From the NCBI GenBank assembly GCA_023381695.1, contig JAMCQP010000083.1:69165-133164 (forward strand): a stretch of DNA of 64,000 bases, given 5' to 3'. Of this stretch, positions 16,204 to 37,678 are shown one piece after another (position 1 is the first letter of the stretch; each line of letters starts with the position of its first letter). Made by a program: the position numbers and the translations under genes. The notes beneath the pieces were generated by a model. That model saw only the letters and a program-made list of their open reading frames with translations, had not been told where the DNA came from and made no database searches. The stretch is from Bacillota bacterium (GTDB lineage Bacteria; Bacillota; UBA5301; JAMCQP01).

Positions 16204-16238
16204 AAACTTGCTGGCCAACCGGTCGGCAAGTTTTTTTT
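16204..16238 (+). terminator. Rho-independent terminator after the Rrf2 gene
   Basis: CTTGC/GCAAG with an inner GGCC/GGTC stem and an AACC loop, followed by eight T. It closes the mre-min-rodA-rrf2 block. Confidence 0.9.
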
Positions 16239-24139: not shown

Positions 24140-24168
24140 TTGCATCACCGCGGGGTTTTTGTTATAAT
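24140..24168 (+). promoter_or_regulatory. Sigma-A-type promoter of the dsr operon
   Basis: TTGCAT at 24140-24145 and TATAAT at 24163-24168 are separated by 17 bases. The start site should fall near 24175, giving a leader of about 160 bases before the first gene. Confidence 0.78.
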
Positions 24169-24226
24169 CATCTTGAGATGTAATATTGTTCCAGTTAAGG
24201 GGAAAGGCAACCTGTAAAGGTCGGAT

Positions 24227-24247
24227 TTCCATACCATTCCATACCAT
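24227..24247 (+). repeat. Two 10-base-spaced direct repeats in the dsr leader
   Basis: TTCCATACCAT occurs twice with a ten-base period, one helical turn apart. It lies downstream of the predicted start site, so it could be a regulator site or part of a leader RNA structure. Confidence 0.55.
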
Positions 24248-24251
24248 AGGT

Positions 24252-24316
24252 GGGATTTGTTTGTATCCCGGAGGCGTTCAGCCCGGAGGTATCTCCTGGC
24301 AGGGCGCCTTTTCTTA
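24252..24316 (+). promoter_or_regulatory. Leader RNA hairpins with attenuator-like end before the dsr genes
   Basis: A first hairpin pairs GGGAT (24252) with ATCCC (24265). A second, larger one pairs GGC, GCCC and GGAG (24273-24288) with CTCC, GGGC and GCC (24293-24308), with side bulges, and runs into TTTTCTTATT. The second looks like an intrinsic terminator placed 20-30 bases before the first start codon. It does not match any riboswitch class I can recall. Confidence 0.45.
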
Positions 24317-24337
24317 TTGTCCGGGGGGGGCACCGGC

Positions 24338-24853
24338 ATGAACCTGGCGGATCTTCTAACAAAAAAACAGGCGGTAATCCTGGAGAGATGGTTCCAGTGG
24401 TTTCTGGAGACGTATCCCGCGGAAACAGCCAGGTTTATGCGCGAGGAGAAGAACCGGTTTGCCAATCCGGTGGGATCTTCCGTCTACCAGGGAATAGAGG
24501 GCCTGTGCCAGGAACTCCTTCAGGGGATGGAACTGGACAGGGTGTATCCCCTCCTCGATCCCATCGTCAGGATCAGGGCTGTCCAGGATTTCCCCCCCTC
24601 CCGGGCGGTCGCTTTTATCTTTGCCTTGAAGAAAGTGATCTTCGAGGAACTGGAGAGTGAAATCCGGGGTGGCCAGATCTCCGTGGAAGAGTTGTTGGAG
24701 TTGGAGTCCAGGATAGATAATCTGGCGCTCCTCTCCTTTGACATCTACACGCAATGCCGGGAGAAGGTTTCCCAGATCAGAGTTGAGGAGATAAAAAGAA
24801 GGTCAGAGAGGCTTTTGCAAAGGGCAAATCTGGTTGTCGATCCGTCGGAGTAG
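24338..24853 (+). CDS. RsbRD_N domain protein at the head of the dsr operon
   Basis: A 171-aa all-helical protein: 'LADLLTKKQAVILERWFQWFLETYPAETARFMREEKNRFANPVG' and 'LDPIVRIRAVQDFPPSRAVAFIFALKKVIFEEL'. This pattern matches the N-terminal domain of RsbR-type proteins (RsbRD_N), a globin-like helical sensor fold, but with no STAS domain. Single-domain forms of this kind are known before dsrMKJOP in sulfate reducers. The role is unknown; sensing or assembly are possible. The ATG at 24338 follows a run of eight G. The track start 27 codons earlier lies inside the leader hairpin. dsrM begins 33 bases later. Confidence 0.8.
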   Translation: MNLADLLTKKQAVILERWFQWFLETYPAETARFMREEKNRFANPVGSSVYQGIEGLCQELLQGMELDRVYPLLDPIVRIRAVQDFPPSRAVAFIFALKKVIFEELESEIRGGQISVEELLELESRIDNLALLSFDIYTQCREKVSQIRVEEIKRRSERLLQRANLVVDPSE

Positions 24854-24885: not shown

Positions 24886-25818
24886 TTGTCCTTCTTTTTC
24901 GGGGTGGTTGTACCTTACGCGGCTCTGATTACGTTCTTCGCCGGCCTGGTCTATCGCGTGGTGAAGTGGGCGCGCGCTCCCGTGCCGTTTCGCATCCCCA
25001 CGACCTGTGGCCAGCAGAAGTCTTTGCCGTGGATCAAGGCCAGTAAATTTGACAATCCTTCCAGCACAGCTGGTGTGGTGGGAAGGATCGCTCTGGAAGC
25101 GCTTCTTTTCCGTTCCCTGTTCAGGAACACCAGGGCCGAGAAGGTCTCTTGGCAAGGAGGCCCGAAACTGGCCTATCGCTGGGAAAAATGGCTCTGGCTG
25201 GCGGCGTTGTCCTTTCACTGGTCCTTCCTGATCATCTTCCTCAGGCATCTGCGCTTTTTCACCGCGCCCGTGCCTTCTCTGATCCGCCTGATTGACGGCG
25301 TCGACGGGTTTTTGCGGGTCGGGGCGCAGGGGCTCTTTATTACGGATGTCTTGATCCTGGTGGCCGTCACCTACCTTTTCCTGAGAAGAGTGGTTCTGCC
25401 TCAAGTGCGGTACATATCCCTTCCCTCCGACTACTTTCCGCCCTTGTTGATCCTTTCTCTGGCCCTTTCCGGGGTTCTGATGCGGTATTTCTTCAGGGTG
25501 GATGTGACCGCCGTTAAAGAGCTGGCCATGGGACTGGTTACCTTCCATCCAAAGGTGCCGGAGGGGATCGGCGTTCTCTTTTATATCCATTTGTTTCTCG
25601 TCGGCAGCCTGTTTGCCTGCTTTCCTTTCAGCAAGCTGGTGCACATGGCGGGGATCTTCCTTACCCCGACCAGAAACCTGCCCAACGACAGCCGGGCTAA
25701 CCGGCATATCGATCCCTGGGATTACCCGGTGAAGATCCATCCGTATGAGATGTACGAGCAGGAATTCGGCAAGAAGATGGCGGAAGCCGGATTGCCCGTC
25801 GAAAAGAGGTGGATGTAG
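24886..25818 (+). CDS. dsrM: DsrM, membrane cytochrome b subunit of DsrMKJOP
   Basis: A 310-aa NarI-like membrane protein with about six hydrophobic segments and several membrane histidines ('SFHWSFLIIFLRHLRFF', 'FYIHLFLVG', 'KLVHMAG') suited to two b hemes. It opens 'FFFGVVVPYAALITFFAGLVYRVVKWARAPVPFRIPTTCGQQ', the DsrM pattern. It would take electrons from menaquinol and pass them to DsrK on the cytosolic side. The start is TTG, eight bases after GGAGG. It nearly overlaps dsrK. A shorter paralogue lies eight kilobases downstream. Confidence 0.93.
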   Translation: MSFFFGVVVPYAALITFFAGLVYRVVKWARAPVPFRIPTTCGQQKSLPWIKASKFDNPSSTAGVVGRIALEALLFRSLFRNTRAEKVSWQGGPKLAYRWEKWLWLAALSFHWSFLIIFLRHLRFFTAPVPSLIRLIDGVDGFLRVGAQGLFITDVLILVAVTYLFLRRVVLPQVRYISLPSDYFPPLLILSLALSGVLMRYFFRVDVTAVKELAMGLVTFHPKVPEGIGVLFYIHLFLVGSLFACFPFSKLVHMAGIFLTPTRNLPNDSRANRHIDPWDYPVKIHPYEMYEQEFGKKMAEAGLPVEKRWM

Positions 25819-32485: not shown

Positions 32486-32803
32486 ATGTCTGAAATTAAT
32501 CTGGCCGGAGTTGCCGTGCAAATTGACGAGGACGGTTTCATTCAGGACACCGGCAAATGGAATGAGGCCGTGGCCAAGGCCCTGGCGGAAACGGAGGGGA
32601 TCACCGGATTATCCGAGGACCACTGGAAGATCATCAACTACCTGCGAAAATACTACCTGGAATTCGGGATTGCCCCGATGATCAGGAAACTCTGCAAGGA
32701 AACAGGCTATGACCTCAAGACCATCTATGAGTTGTTCCCGTCCGGACCGGCCAAGGGCGCCTGCAAGATCGCCGGTTTGCCCAAACCCACCGGGTGCGTC
32801 TAG
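32486..32803 (+). CDS. dsrC: DsrC, sulfur-carrying substrate protein of sulfite reduction
   Basis: A 105-aa protein ending 'GACKIAGLPKPTGCV' with both redox cysteines of true DsrC, C93 and the penultimate C104; TusE-type relatives have only the latter. DsrC takes the sulfur made by DsrAB as a trisulfide, which DsrK then reduces. The ATG at 32486 follows GGAGGTG at eight bases. The upstream part of the track ORF is the hairpin region. It is directly followed by the second dsrM-dsrK pair, suggesting that pair works on DsrC. Confidence 0.96.
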   Translation: MSEINLAGVAVQIDEDGFIQDTGKWNEAVAKALAETEGITGLSEDHWKIINYLRKYYLEFGIAPMIRKLCKETGYDLKTIYELFPSGPAKGACKIAGLPKPTGCV

Positions 32804-32826
32804 TATTGCGGCAGGGAGGGAGAAAG

Positions 32827-33489
32827 TTGGGACTGTGGTTTGTCATCGGAGGCATACTTCCCTATCTGGCACTTCTGGTGGGCGTGGGCGGCCTGATCAG
32901 CCGCATTTTGCGCTGGGCGCGCGCGCCGCAACACCTGCACTGGGAGCTCTTTCCCTACCCGTCCACCCCGGCGGGGCAGACGGGGGAACTCCTGGCGGAG
33001 GTCTTCACGCTCCGGAGTCTGTACAGCTACAACCTGCGGTTCTGGCTGCCATCTCTTACCATGCACTATGGAATCTATCTGGTGATCCTGTGGATGGGGC
33101 TATCCGCGCTGGGGGTGAGGGATACCGCCGTCGCGGGGGCGGCGGGAGGCGTGCTGGCGGTGGCGGGCGCCGCGGCCCTGGTGGTGATTCGTGCCGCCCG
33201 CAGGGAAACCCGGCAAATCACTGCTCCCGTGGAGTACCTGAATCTGGCCCTGGTCATGGCCATCGGCCTTTCCGGGTTGATTACCGGCTGGTTCCTTCAA
33301 CCGGAAGCTTTCCGGCGGTATGTGATCGGCCTGGCAAGCTTTTCTCCCGTGTTGCCGGCGGCGGAACAACTGGCGCCCATCCTGTTCCTGGAGGTGTTTC
33401 TGCTCTATCTTCCCTTCAGCCGGATGGCCCATTTTGCCGCCAAGTACTTTACCTATCACAAGGTGAAATGGGGGGAGATGGCCAGGTGA
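32827..33489 (+). CDS. Second, shorter DsrM-like cytochrome b subunit
   Basis: A 220-aa membrane protein with five or six hydrophobic segments, opening 'WFVIGGILPYLALLVGVGGLISRILRWARAPQHLHWELFPYP'. Histidines in 'TMHYGIYL' and 'RMAHFAAKYF' could bind heme. It resembles dsrM but is 90 residues shorter, near the size of HdrE/NarI-type subunits and of the DsrM found in two-gene dsrMK clusters of Gram-positive sulfate reducers. The TTG at 32827 has GGGAGGGAG upstream; the track start overlaps dsrC. Its stop overlaps the start of the paired dsrK-like gene. Confidence 0.88.
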   Translation: MGLWFVIGGILPYLALLVGVGGLISRILRWARAPQHLHWELFPYPSTPAGQTGELLAEVFTLRSLYSYNLRFWLPSLTMHYGIYLVILWMGLSALGVRDTAVAGAAGGVLAVAGAAALVVIRAARRETRQITAPVEYLNLALVMAIGLSGLITGWFLQPEAFRRYVIGLASFSPVLPAAEQLAPILFLEVFLLYLPFSRMAHFAAKYFTYHKVKWGEMAR

Positions 33490-35012
33490 GAAAGGTTTTT
33501 GACGATTACCGCGCTCTCTCCGATCAGGCGATCCAGGCCAGGTCCCCCCGGCGGGCGGCTTTTCTGGAGGCCATGGGGAAATCCCTGCGGTCCGGGGAAA
33601 ACCGGGCTTTCTGGCTGCCTTACGTGCTTTCCCTGGACATGTGCATGAAATGCGGGACCTGTGCCGAGGTTTGCCCACTGTATCTTTCCAGCGGGCGGAA
33701 CGCGCTGTACCACCCGGTTTACCGCTCCGACATGCTGCGCAAGGTCTACCGGCGGTACTTCACGCTGTCCGGGAAGCTTTTCCCCAAGGTGGTCGGGGCG
33801 GAGGATCTTACCGAGGAAAAGCTGGACGCCATGGCGGAGAACTTTTACCGGTGCACGGTGTGCCGCCGCTGCGCCTATGTGTGCCCGGTGGCCATTGATA
33901 ACGGCCTCCTGGCCCGGGAGGGAAGGAAGATCTTTGATGCCATCGGCATTGCACCTGATGAGCTGAAGGAGAAGGGCACCAGGTTGCAGCTGGAGGCGGG
34001 GAACGCCACCGGGGTAAAGACGCCGGCCTTTCGCGACATGGTGGAATTTATGGAAGAAGATCTTCAGGACACCCGGGGATACCAGGTGCAGATCCCCGTG
34101 GATAAAAAGGGCGCCGAGTATCTGGTGATGCATAATACCGGCGATTACCCGGCGTTTTCGGAAACCGTCATGGGGGCCGCGGAGATCTTTCAGGCCGCGG
34201 GCGCGGACTGGACCGTAAACTCCCCCGACACGGGGATTAACGATGTAGTCAACTACGGGGTCTTTTTCAGCGATACGGAGTTTGAAAAGGTGGCCCGGGC
34301 CCAGGTAAGGACAGTCCGGGAGCTGGGGGCAAGGGTCCTGGTGATCGGGGAGTGCGGACATGCCTTTGAGGCCATGAAATACCTCATCCAGAGGTTGATC
34401 CCTGCCGAGGAACGCCCCTTTGAGGTCAAGAGCATCCTGGAGGTCTATGATGAGTGGATCCGGGAAGGCCGAATCGAGCTCGACCCGGCCAAAAACCCCG
34501 AGCCGGTGGTCTATCACGATTCCTGCAAGGCGGGGCGCCTGGGAGGGTTGTACGAAGAGCCTCGGCGGATCTTGAAGAGCGCCTGTCTGGACCTCCGGGA
34601 GATGACGCCCAACCGGGAGCTGAGCTACTGCTGCGGCGGCGGCAGTGGGTTTGCCATCATGAGCAAGGGGGACTTCCTGAAGTTTCGCATGGAGACCTAC
34701 GGCAAGATCAAGGAAGAGCAGATCAGGCAGACGGGCGCCGGGGTGGTCGCCCTGGCCTGTTCCAACTGCAAGGGGCAGTTCCGCGATATCATCAATTATT
34801 ATCACCTGCCGGTGCGCATCGCCGGGATCAGCGAGCTGGTGGCCAATGCCCTGGTACGGGGGAGGGATAGGCGCAGTGAAGGGATTACGTTTGCCCAGGC
34901 TGGTGGTGGGAGCGCCGCACGGGAAGTCCGGGAAGACCACGATCACCGTGGGGTTGTTGCAAGCCCTGCGCGGGAGGGGGATCCCCGTCCAGGCTTTCAA
35001 GAAAGGGCCTGA
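33486..35012 (+). CDS. Second DsrK/HdrD-like iron-sulfur subunit, with a 137-base overlap into dsrN
   Basis: A 508-aa frame. Ferredoxin clusters 'CMKCGTCAEVCPLY' and 'CTVCRRCAYVCPVAID' are followed by a complete CCG set: 'YHDSCKAGR', 'SYCCGGGSG' and 'LACSNCKGQ'. This is fuller than in dsrK upstream. It starts at GTG inside the stop of the dsrM-like gene. The family part ends near 'ISELVANALVRG', at about 34860. The last 50 residues ('DRRSEGITFAQ...') lie over the start of dsrN in another frame and look unlike protein of this family. One extra G in the G-run near 34857-34861 would give a TAG at 34868. The earlier part of track ORF 32709-35012 is not coding. Confidence 0.87.
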   Translation: MRKVFDDYRALSDQAIQARSPRRAAFLEAMGKSLRSGENRAFWLPYVLSLDMCMKCGTCAEVCPLYLSSGRNALYHPVYRSDMLRKVYRRYFTLSGKLFPKVVGAEDLTEEKLDAMAENFYRCTVCRRCAYVCPVAIDNGLLAREGRKIFDAIGIAPDELKEKGTRLQLEAGNATGVKTPAFRDMVEFMEEDLQDTRGYQVQIPVDKKGAEYLVMHNTGDYPAFSETVMGAAEIFQAAGADWTVNSPDTGINDVVNYGVFFSDTEFEKVARAQVRTVRELGARVLVIGECGHAFEAMKYLIQRLIPAEERPFEVKSILEVYDEWIREGRIELDPAKNPEPVVYHDSCKAGRLGGLYEEPRRILKSACLDLREMTPNRELSYCCGGGSGFAIMSKGDFLKFRMETYGKIKEEQIRQTGAGVVALACSNCKGQFRDIINYYHLPVRIAGISELVANALVRGRDRRSEGITFAQAGGGSAAREVREDHDHRGVVASPAREGDPRPGFQERA

Positions 35013-36297
35013 CTATATCGACCCGTCCTGGCTCGAGCAGGCCAGTCTCCGGCCCTGCCATAACCTGGACTCTTTTCTGATGACGCCGCAATCCATTATC
35101 GGCTCGGTGGCACGGCACGCCAGGGGCATGGATCTGGCCCTGGTGGAAGGAAACATGGGCCTCTACGATGGTGCCGACCTGGAGGGCAGCGGCAGCACGG
35201 CCGAACTGGCCAGGATTATTCAGGCTCCGGTACTTCTGGTGGTGGACGCCACCAGGATCACCCGCAGCGTGGCGGCGGTGGTCATGGGCTTCCAGGTCTT
35301 CGACCCCGGCTTACACATCGGGGGCGTGATCCTGAACCGGGTGGCCCGTCCGCGGCACGAGGAGATGCTCCGGCAAAGCATCGAGAAATATTGCGGCATC
35401 CCGGTGCTGGGGGCGGTTCCCCGTTGCCCGGAGATGGTATTGCCCGACCGTCACCTGGGATTGTTGCCGCCCCAGGAGTGGGAGAGCGGCAGGGAATGGG
35501 TGGAAGGTGTGGGGCGGGTGATCTCCAGCCACGTGGATCTGGACGCTCTTTGGCGGCTGGCGGCCAGCGCCGCTCCTCTGGCGGTGCCGGAGGAGGGAGG
35601 GCCGCATCCAGCCGCTGCCCGGGAACATGTGGTCATCGGAGTATTCCGCGACCGGGCCTTCCACTTTTACTACCCGGAGAACCTCGAAGCTCTGGAACAT
35701 GCCGGCGCCCGCCTGGTGTTCATCGACTCCCTGGCGGACAAGGAACTGCCCCCCGTGGATGGGCTGTACATCGGTGGGGGATTTCCCGAGGTGATGGCCG
35801 CCGGGCTGGAGGCCAACGTTTCCTTGCGGCGGAGGGTACGGCGGGCGGCGGAATCTGGTCTTCCCGTCTACGCTGAATGTGGTGGGTTGATGTATCTGGG
35901 GCGCACCGTGGCCTGGCAAGGCAAGCAGTACAAGATGGCCGGAGCGCTGCCTCTGGATGTCGTCATGGAAGCCGGACCACAAGGCCACGGATACGTGGCG
36001 GCGGAGGTCGTTGAACCGAATCCCTTCTGGGCTCCCGGCCAGGTGGTGCGCGGCCACGAGTTTCATCACTCCCTGGTCCAGGGGCTGGATGAAACCAGGG
36101 TGAAACTCGCGTTGCGCATCATGCGGGGGCATGGACTCGATGGGCAAAGCGACGGGATCACCTATAAGAATGTGTTTGCCTCCTATCTTCACGTGCACGC
36201 CCTGGGAGAACCTTCGTGGGCGGAGGCGTTTGTCAGGGCGGCTTCCGAGGTAAAGGAGGTGAGTGAGGGAAAAAGCATGGCAAGGATGGAGGGTTAA
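34876..36297 (+). CDS. dsrN: DsrN, cobyrinate a,c-diamide synthase-like glutamine amidotransferase
   Basis: A 473-aa CbiA-type enzyme. The N-terminal P-loop is 'GAPHGKSGKTTITVGL', followed by 'KKGPDYIDPSWL'. The C-terminal class I amidotransferase domain has the nucleophile in 'PVYAECGGLMYLG' and a His/Glu region near 'GHEFHHS'. CbiA amidates cobyrinate. Next to dsrAB the family is called DsrN and is held to amidate siroheme to the siroheme amide of DsrAB. No other cobalamin genes are near, which favours DsrN. The GTG at 34876 follows GGGGGAGGG at eight bases. Confidence 0.9.
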   Translation: MKGLRLPRLVVGAPHGKSGKTTITVGLLQALRGRGIPVQAFKKGPDYIDPSWLEQASLRPCHNLDSFLMTPQSIIGSVARHARGMDLALVEGNMGLYDGADLEGSGSTAELARIIQAPVLLVVDATRITRSVAAVVMGFQVFDPGLHIGGVILNRVARPRHEEMLRQSIEKYCGIPVLGAVPRCPEMVLPDRHLGLLPPQEWESGREWVEGVGRVISSHVDLDALWRLAASAAPLAVPEEGGPHPAAAREHVVIGVFRDRAFHFYYPENLEALEHAGARLVFIDSLADKELPPVDGLYIGGGFPEVMAAGLEANVSLRRRVRRAAESGLPVYAECGGLMYLGRTVAWQGKQYKMAGALPLDVVMEAGPQGHGYVAAEVVEPNPFWAPGQVVRGHEFHHSLVQGLDETRVKLALRIMRGHGLDGQSDGITYKNVFASYLHVHALGEPSWAEAFVRAASEVKEVSEGKSMARMEG

Positions 36298-36337
36298 CCG
36301 CAGGCCAATTGAGCCAAAACCAAAAGGAGGGCTAAAC

Positions 36338-37678
36338 GTGAGTCAAACTAGCGTACAACCATCTGTAGCCCAGCCGGTCAAAAAGCGCAGCTGGCTCCTG
36401 ACCAGCGAGGACTGGTGGGCGGTTTACCTGGGACTGTTTCTATTAGTCTTAGCCTACGTCGCCTTTTCGCTCCAAGCGCCTCTGGACCTGATAAAAGGAG
36501 CGGTGCCGCAGGAATGGCCTCAGAACCCCTTGTTGCCCGGGTTGGCCAGCCATATCGGGAACTATGTCTTCGTTTACTTGTTGTTGCTGGTGTTGACCTC
36601 GATCGGGGTGCGGACGATGGGGGGCAAGTTGAGCCATTACATCGCCGGGTTCACCCTCCTGTTCATCGGGGGGCTGCTGATCCTGATCCTGGGGAGCCAG
36701 CAGACGATCAAGAAGTATGGGATGGAGTATCCTTTCTGGTCGCTGATCATCGGGTTGATCATCGGCAACCTGGGGAAGATGCCGGCCTGGTTCAAGGTAT
36801 CGGCGGGCCGCACCGAGTTCTACATCAAGATGGGCATTATCCTCCTGGGGGCCAACCTGCCGTTCACGGTCATCGTCACCGGCGGCGCGTGGGGGTTCCT
36901 GGAAGCGCTGATCATCGTGGCGGTTGGTTTCACGGTGGCGTTCGTGATCGCCAGGAGGCTTGGTTTTGACAACAAGTTTGCGGCGGTGCTGGGCGCCGGC
37001 GCATCGGTCTGCGGCGTGTCGGCCGCCATCGCCGTGGGCAGCAGCGTCAAGGCGAAGGAAAAAGATGTGGGTTACGTGATCTCCCTGGTGGTCCTCTACG
37101 CCCTGGTGCTGATCTTCCTGCTTCCCATTCTGGGCCGTGCCCTCGGCCTGAATCCGGTGGTTACCGGCGCCTGGATCGGCGGGTCGGAACTGGCGGATGC
37201 GGCGGGGTTGGCCGCGGCGGCCATGGTCGGCGAAAAGGCGGTGCAGGTCTTCTCCCTGGTGAAGCTGAACCGCGACGTGATGATTGCCTTCCTGGCCTTC
37301 ATCTTTGCCACGGTGTCCATCACCCGGTGGGAGAGAGGAGAGGGCGGAAAACGGCCCGGCGCCGTGGTGATCTGGGAGCGTTTCCCCAAGTTCGTCATTG
37401 CCTTCGTGCTCGCCTCCATCTTCGCCACCTACCTGGTGGTGCAGTTTACCAAGCCGGTGGTCGACGCGCACATCATCGGGGTGATGAACGCCCTGCGCAC
37501 CTGGTTGTTTACCATCACTTTCCTGTGCATCGGGCTGAACACCAAGATCACCGACGTTCGCGCCATGGGCAGCAAACCCATTATCGCCTTTACCACCGTG
37601 GTGGTGGTGAACGTGATCGTGGGCTTTATTCTGGCCAACCTGTTCTTCGGCGGGATCATCGCCTCGCCGTTGAAGTAG
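36338..37678 (+). CDS. YeiH family (UPF0324) putative sulfur-oxyanion transporter
   Basis: A 446-aa protein with ten or more membrane segments and the family core 'FYIKMGIILLGANLPFT', 'GAGASVCGVSAAIAVG' and 'LCIGLNTKITDVRAMGSKPIIAF'. The family (Cons_hypoth698) is often labelled putative sulfate exporter from its link to sulfonate-degrading genes. Here it is coupled to dsrN by a 40-base gap, so export or uptake of sulfite, sulfide or sulfate for the Dsr route is a fair inference, not shown. The GTG at 36338 with AGGAGGG six bases before is preferred over the track start, which overlaps dsrN. Confidence 0.87.
   Translation: MSQTSVQPSVAQPVKKRSWLLTSEDWWAVYLGLFLLVLAYVAFSLQAPLDLIKGAVPQEWPQNPLLPGLASHIGNYVFVYLLLLVLTSIGVRTMGGKLSHYIAGFTLLFIGGLLILILGSQQTIKKYGMEYPFWSLIIGLIIGNLGKMPAWFKVSAGRTEFYIKMGIILLGANLPFTVIVTGGAWGFLEALIIVAVGFTVAFVIARRLGFDNKFAAVLGAGASVCGVSAAIAVGSSVKAKEKDVGYVISLVVLYALVLIFLLPILGRALGLNPVVTGAWIGGSELADAAGLAAAAMVGEKAVQVFSLVKLNRDVMIAFLAFIFATVSITRWERGEGGKRPGAVVIWERFPKFVIAFVLASIFATYLVVQFTKPVVDAHIIGVMNALRTWLFTITFLCIGLNTKITDVRAMGSKPIIAFTTVVVVNVIVGFILANLFFGGIIASPLK

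Follow-up and report, generated by a model that had tools for sequence, protein, structure and literature searches.

Bacillota are known to control transcription through 5' leaders in which a promoter and a short leader are followed by an intrinsic terminator ahead of the first gene. T-box leaders (RF00230) carry in addition a specifier stem and the T-box sequence, and the ANTAR-target motif consists of two hairpins, the hexaloops of which carry A1 and G4. To our knowledge, the regulation of dsr operons outside Desulfovibrio is poorly known. Full-text literature searches brought up no account of attenuation at dsr genes and no relevant paper tying dsr to riboswitches or RsbRD, and no mention of RsbRD_N with dsrM or sulfite reductase was found in the literature searched. 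Here we describe a genuine-looking terminator in the dsr leader of an uncultured Bacillota-like bacterium. The analysis covered a stretch of 64,000 nucleotides (64 kb), which we call the window, and all features given below are on the + strand. If transcription of dsr has to pass through a terminator, that terminator would offer a simple point at which to control sulfite respiration.

The dsr locus and its promoter-like sequence

The dsr operon lies downstream of the rplU-prp-rpmA operon, the last gene of which is rpmA (ribosomal protein L27, 23784-24092; Pfam PF01016, 2.2e-36). Its first gene (24338-24853) encodes a 171-aa protein with an RsbRD_N domain (PF14361, 4.3e-20) and has the same start methionine in close homologues. 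Based on Pfam and on homology with dsr loci, it is followed by dsrM (24886-25818) and then by dsrK, J, O, P, A, B and C, reaching 32803, so that the gene order is RsbRD_N protein, then dsrMKJOP-AB-C. In the region 32794-37678 we assigned by eye, from the translations, a second DsrM/DsrK-like pair after dsrC, past which there are a CbiA-like gene, perhaps DsrN (34846-36297), and a gene for a YeiH-like membrane protein (36263-37678). An eight-G run (24323-24330) is present in the ribosome-binding region of rsbRD, which lacks the AAGGG-type ribosome-binding site seen in several relatives; the window has one other G8 run and no C8. The G8 run could slip and thereby give variable rsbRD translation.

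Searching 399 genomes of the phylum, we found DsrM relatives in 51. We also fetched 80 RsbRD loci (L055-L134) from Bacillota, Nitrospirota and Desulfobacterota-like genomes, and in nearly all of them the RsbRD_N gene was located upstream of dsrM or dsrK. As the association is found nearly everywhere across these loci, we consider it old. The gene immediately 5' of the RsbRD_N gene was often dsrC.

Between rpmA and rsbRD, TTGCAT (24140-24145) is followed after a 17-nt spacer by TATAAT (24163-24168), which the first-pass annotation had called a good promoter. The boxes, their spacing and their coordinates were correct, but the strength of the -35 box was overstated; it matches TTGACA at only 3/6 positions and falls under the promoter-scan threshold, and because of this weak -35 the stock promoter scan omits 24140-24168. 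The strength of the promoter is instead predicted to reside in the extended -10 TGTTATAAT (24160-24168); across both strands of the 64 kb, TGNTATAAT is found only there. Placing the start about 7 nt past the -10 box, we infer a 5' leader of the dsr transcript at 24175-24337. A sigma-54-type start inside the terminator (TGGCAG...TTTTC) was also considered and rejected by eye, as it is without the -12 GC.

The terminator and the pairing of the leader

The leader contains an intrinsic terminator at 24270-24318, with the stem at 24270-24311 and a U-rich tail at 24309-24318 (TTTTCTTATT). It had a folding energy of -26.6 kcal/mol (z -4.1 versus dinucleotide shuffles, matched by 0.2% of the shuffles), and in a transcript ending at 24316 its equilibrium pairing probability exceeded 0.98. 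Taking both strands of the 64 kb together, only four sites had a terminator of this kind; another of these, at 16233, comes after a stop codon and simply marks the end of a gene. The bulged hairpin and U-tract previously noticed just upstream of the first gene were confirmed by these values, and there is good support for an attenuator-like terminator located between the dsr operon and the promoter-like sequence. The gap to the first gene is 19 nt, and no promoter-like sequence was seen between the terminator and the rsbRD start. For this reason dsr transcription probably crosses the terminator, as judged from position. Since it sits between the promoter-like sequence, identified by sequence match, and the first codon, as an attenuator does, the terminator is probably an attenuator in position, either regulated or merely leaky.

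The remainder of the leader was less remarkable than the term structured leader, used in the earlier description, would suggest. The term holds for the terminator only, as the leader without it (24175-24262) folded no better than shuffles (z -0.1). A 5' hairpin at 24201-24230, in which GGAAA and UUUCC enclose GGCA and CGGA below an ACCU-GUAA-AGGU tip, was an early stable structure in growing-transcript folding, and was followed by a longer-range 5' fold and then by the terminator. This hairpin is marginal (z -2.4, 2.6% of shuffles), the segment having been picked after looking. A small hairpin, GGGAU/AUCCC (24252-24269), was read from the sequence next to the terminator and is absent from the minimum-energy fold.

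We found a candidate antiterminator, the 5' arm of which (24199-24226) had been missed in the first-pass annotation. It pairs with 24291-24315 at -27.4 kcal/mol, which equals the energy of the terminator. Because this alternative pairing overlaps the 5' hairpin, the usual mutually exclusive states would be expected. Against chance, the pairing had p values of 0.004 in shuffles, 0.042 in genomic 88-mers and 0.020 in GC-matched ones. Since 4.2% of genomic 88-mers (2.0% at similar G+C) match it, versus 0.4% of shuffles, we rate the antiterminator as only suggestive. The 5' arm did not occur elsewhere in the window's genome. At equilibrium the antiterminator made up less than 0.1% of the ensemble and the terminator more than 98%, and the default state would thus be termination.

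On balance we lean slightly towards the leader being a transcription-attenuation site of ordinary anatomy. From the terminator, its location between the promoter-like sequence and the gene, and the possible alternative pairing, we infer a transcription start, read-through and any regulation as follows. RNA polymerase would start at the extended -10 promoter, some 160 nt before the first gene of the operon, make a short leader and then meet the strong intrinsic terminator, which would also end transcripts arriving from the rplU-prp-rpmA operon. Only polymerases reading through it would transcribe rsbRD-dsrMKJOP-AB-C. Termination would be the default outcome, and read-through would either be a fixed fraction or be raised when the arm 24199-24226 captures the 3' strand of the terminator.

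Attenuation is favoured by a terminator far stronger than chance with a complete U-tract, by its placement between the only TGNTATAAT of the window and the start codon, and by an alternative pairing of equal energy that overlaps the 5' hairpin. Terminator attenuation is also widely used in this genome, which has 13 T-box matches. Against attenuation speak the marginal standing of the antiterminator relative to genomic sequence and its small equilibrium share, a 5' domain without excess structure, and the failure to find a homologous leader among 51 searched sources or 150 relatives.

Conservation of the leader and other explanations

A further point against attenuation is that terminator-like hairpins trailing rpmA are common in the class, so that the terminator may serve the upstream operon alone. 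It is possible, though clearly less probable than attenuation, that the terminator does no more than close the rplU-prp-rpmA (L21-L27) operon, that the leader holds no sensor and that dsr is expressed by leaky read-through or from an unrecognised promoter. In three of four class relatives, as in the window, a terminator-like hairpin separates rpmA from the gene that follows, in the relatives at 11-116 nt and in two cases with a good U-tract: at +16..+56 past rpmA in L158 (-21.1), at +11..+50 in L160 (-18.5) and at +94..+116 in L159 (-22.8, poor U-tract). The gene obgE comes soon after rpmA in three relatives, directly in two, and no second strong terminator is present between rpmA and dsr in the window. 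In the window's genome obgE is on another contig (G000:C49:7536-8000) and rpmA is followed by the dsr operon instead, indicating that the locus was rearranged. However, the window's terminator is 179 nt past rpmA, farther than in any relative (11-94 nt in L158, L159 and L160), and has an extended -10 promoter ahead of it and dsr, rather than obgE, after it. It also has no obvious resemblance to the relatives' hairpins. The terminator can serve attenuation and the operon end together, and the probabilities that we give to the readings overlap, as these are not fully exclusive.

Much less probable is an orphan riboswitch or protein-responsive RNA, in which the 5' domain (24196-24270) would bind a ligand or protein and toggle between terminator and antiterminator. 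Such a switch would be in line with the 5' hairpin and the alternative pairing, with the costly operon downstream and with two nested repeat pairs, for which AGGUSGGA could form another pairing with UCCAUACC. Rfam, searched across the window at the gathering threshold and across the leader at E 10, gave nothing relevant, bar a chance snoRNA match, in agreement with the initial remark that the leader fits no riboswitch family. The structure of the 5' domain was not beyond chance, and no homologous leader was found at the other dsr loci searched or at other genes.

The window's class has seven genomes, none of the others being of the same family, and a dsrA match was found in one of the six others (G001), where the upstream gene differs from that of the window. 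A covariance model of 24196-24270 searched against 150 related genomes and 51 sources found only itself, plus chance-level matches. When the leader was compared by BLAST with 61 genomes, those of the better hits that we inspected were inside coding sequence or shared short words only, and the second hit in the own genome was, by eye, the antisense of the aprA start. Unlike the RsbRD_N-dsr gene association, the leader is, as far as sequence comparison indicates, not conserved among the genomes searched. It had been proposed that unconserved hairpins in relatives would refute a regulatory leader. They were absent from all related dsr operons found, none of which is from the same family, and this goes only half way towards refutation.

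As no such conservation was seen, as the putative sensor part was no more structured than expected by chance and as the antiterminator is only marginal, the proposed ligand- or protein-responsive regulation is not well supported. We regard it as unlikely that a lineage-specific orphan RNA senses a sulfur signal (e.g. sulfite, sulfide or sirohaem) and antiterminates dsr via 24199-24226 and 24291-24315. Antitermination at dsr, if true, would be a new mechanism for the sulfite-respiration pathway.

The two ten-base-phased repeats reported earlier are present at 24227-24246 as perfect tandem copies of TTCCATACCA, the sole perfect tandem 10-mer in the 64 kb. They are bracketed by a pair AGGT(C/G)GGATTT that had escaped notice, with AGGTCGGATTT at 24218-24228 and AGGTGGGATTT at 24248-24258 on either side of the CCATACC repeats. 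As 10-bp direct repeats face one side of the helix, the tandem might be a DNA operator bound by a repressor or response regulator, with transcription being blocked from about +53, but we find this improbable, even more so than the orphan RNA. Perfect 10-bp phasing is unusual by chance in a leader (5e-5 of shuffled leaders); recent slippage duplication, however, accounts for the repeat equally well, and a search of the entire genome that allowed up to 3 mismatches found TTCCATACCA in tandem just once. The locus may still have a dedicated one-site regulator.

A degenerate T-box is hardly credible: the sequence around the terminator is similar to the terminator end of a valS T-box-like leader (AGGGCGCCTTTTCTyATTG), with a BLAST match to L002, which reads as such a leader, but the dsr leader has no T-box match and is too short for a stem I with specifier, and the antiterminator motifs of the genome's own, classical T-boxes look nothing alike.

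The ANTAR-target motif was not recognised when the leader was read by eye, since the 5' hairpin, taken as a hexaloop, gives UGUAAA and the loop of the second hairpin is 8 nt. Reading the sequence in the same way, we saw no proper short ORF with a ribosome-binding site and its own stop that would suit leader-peptide attenuation. The leader reading frames are limited to ATG-TAA at 24178 and to TTG at 24257, which is in frame with rsbRD and stop-free.

The structural observation in the first-pass annotation was largely right, and its regulatory reading stays a proposal. The element has the look of an ordinary attenuator, or of an operon-end signal, that is specific to its lineage, and it is not a demonstrated new RNA switch.

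Comparison with other dsr leaders and known attenuators

Other dsr leaders have elements of their own. In Desulfosporosinus-type leaders (L045, L046, L094, L100, L106, L109 and L126) a near-invariant 16-bp hairpin, GGTCGGTGTTGGATGG...CCATTC(A/G)(A/G)CATCGACT, followed by a T-rich stretch, is located about 60-150 nt 5' of rsbRD. Its few stem changes are all one-sided, with pairing kept in every case, and Rfam gave no match on the three loci of this type that were searched. This hairpin is a conserved dsr leader element unrelated to that of the window. A 9-nt word, AAAGGTCGG, common to the window and Desulfosporosinus dsr leaders was judged to be at chance level. Moorella-type dsr operons (L056, L065, L070, L073, L155 and L156) share GCAGGA(A/T)TTTT...ATAGCGAA, then TTTATAAAT or similar, upstream of rsbRD or of a ferredoxin gene. 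This motif, which was not seen in the window's leader, resembles a sigma-H type promoter.

Among the scanned rsbRD upstream regions, only L056 (Clostridia MAG DJKA97_NP-J24_bin.48) had a comparably strong terminator right before rsbRD. As in the window, a hairpin (-28.1 kcal/mol) with a U-tract is present, 27 nt before the rsbRD start; unlike that of the window, it is between a ferredoxin gene and rsbRD, and no sequence similarity was found between the two.

With T-box leaders (RF00230) the window shares a similar G+C-rich end of the terminator stem and the U-tract, whereas the specifier stem, the T-box sequence and a covariance-model match are absent. In contrast to the 5'-leader intrinsic-terminator attenuators of the Bacillota, no sensor, ligand, leader peptide or site for an RNA-binding protein was recognised in the window, and no conservation was seen among the genomes searched. 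What it does share with those attenuators is a promoter, a short leader and a strong terminator before the first gene, and likewise a possible alternative antiterminator pairing.
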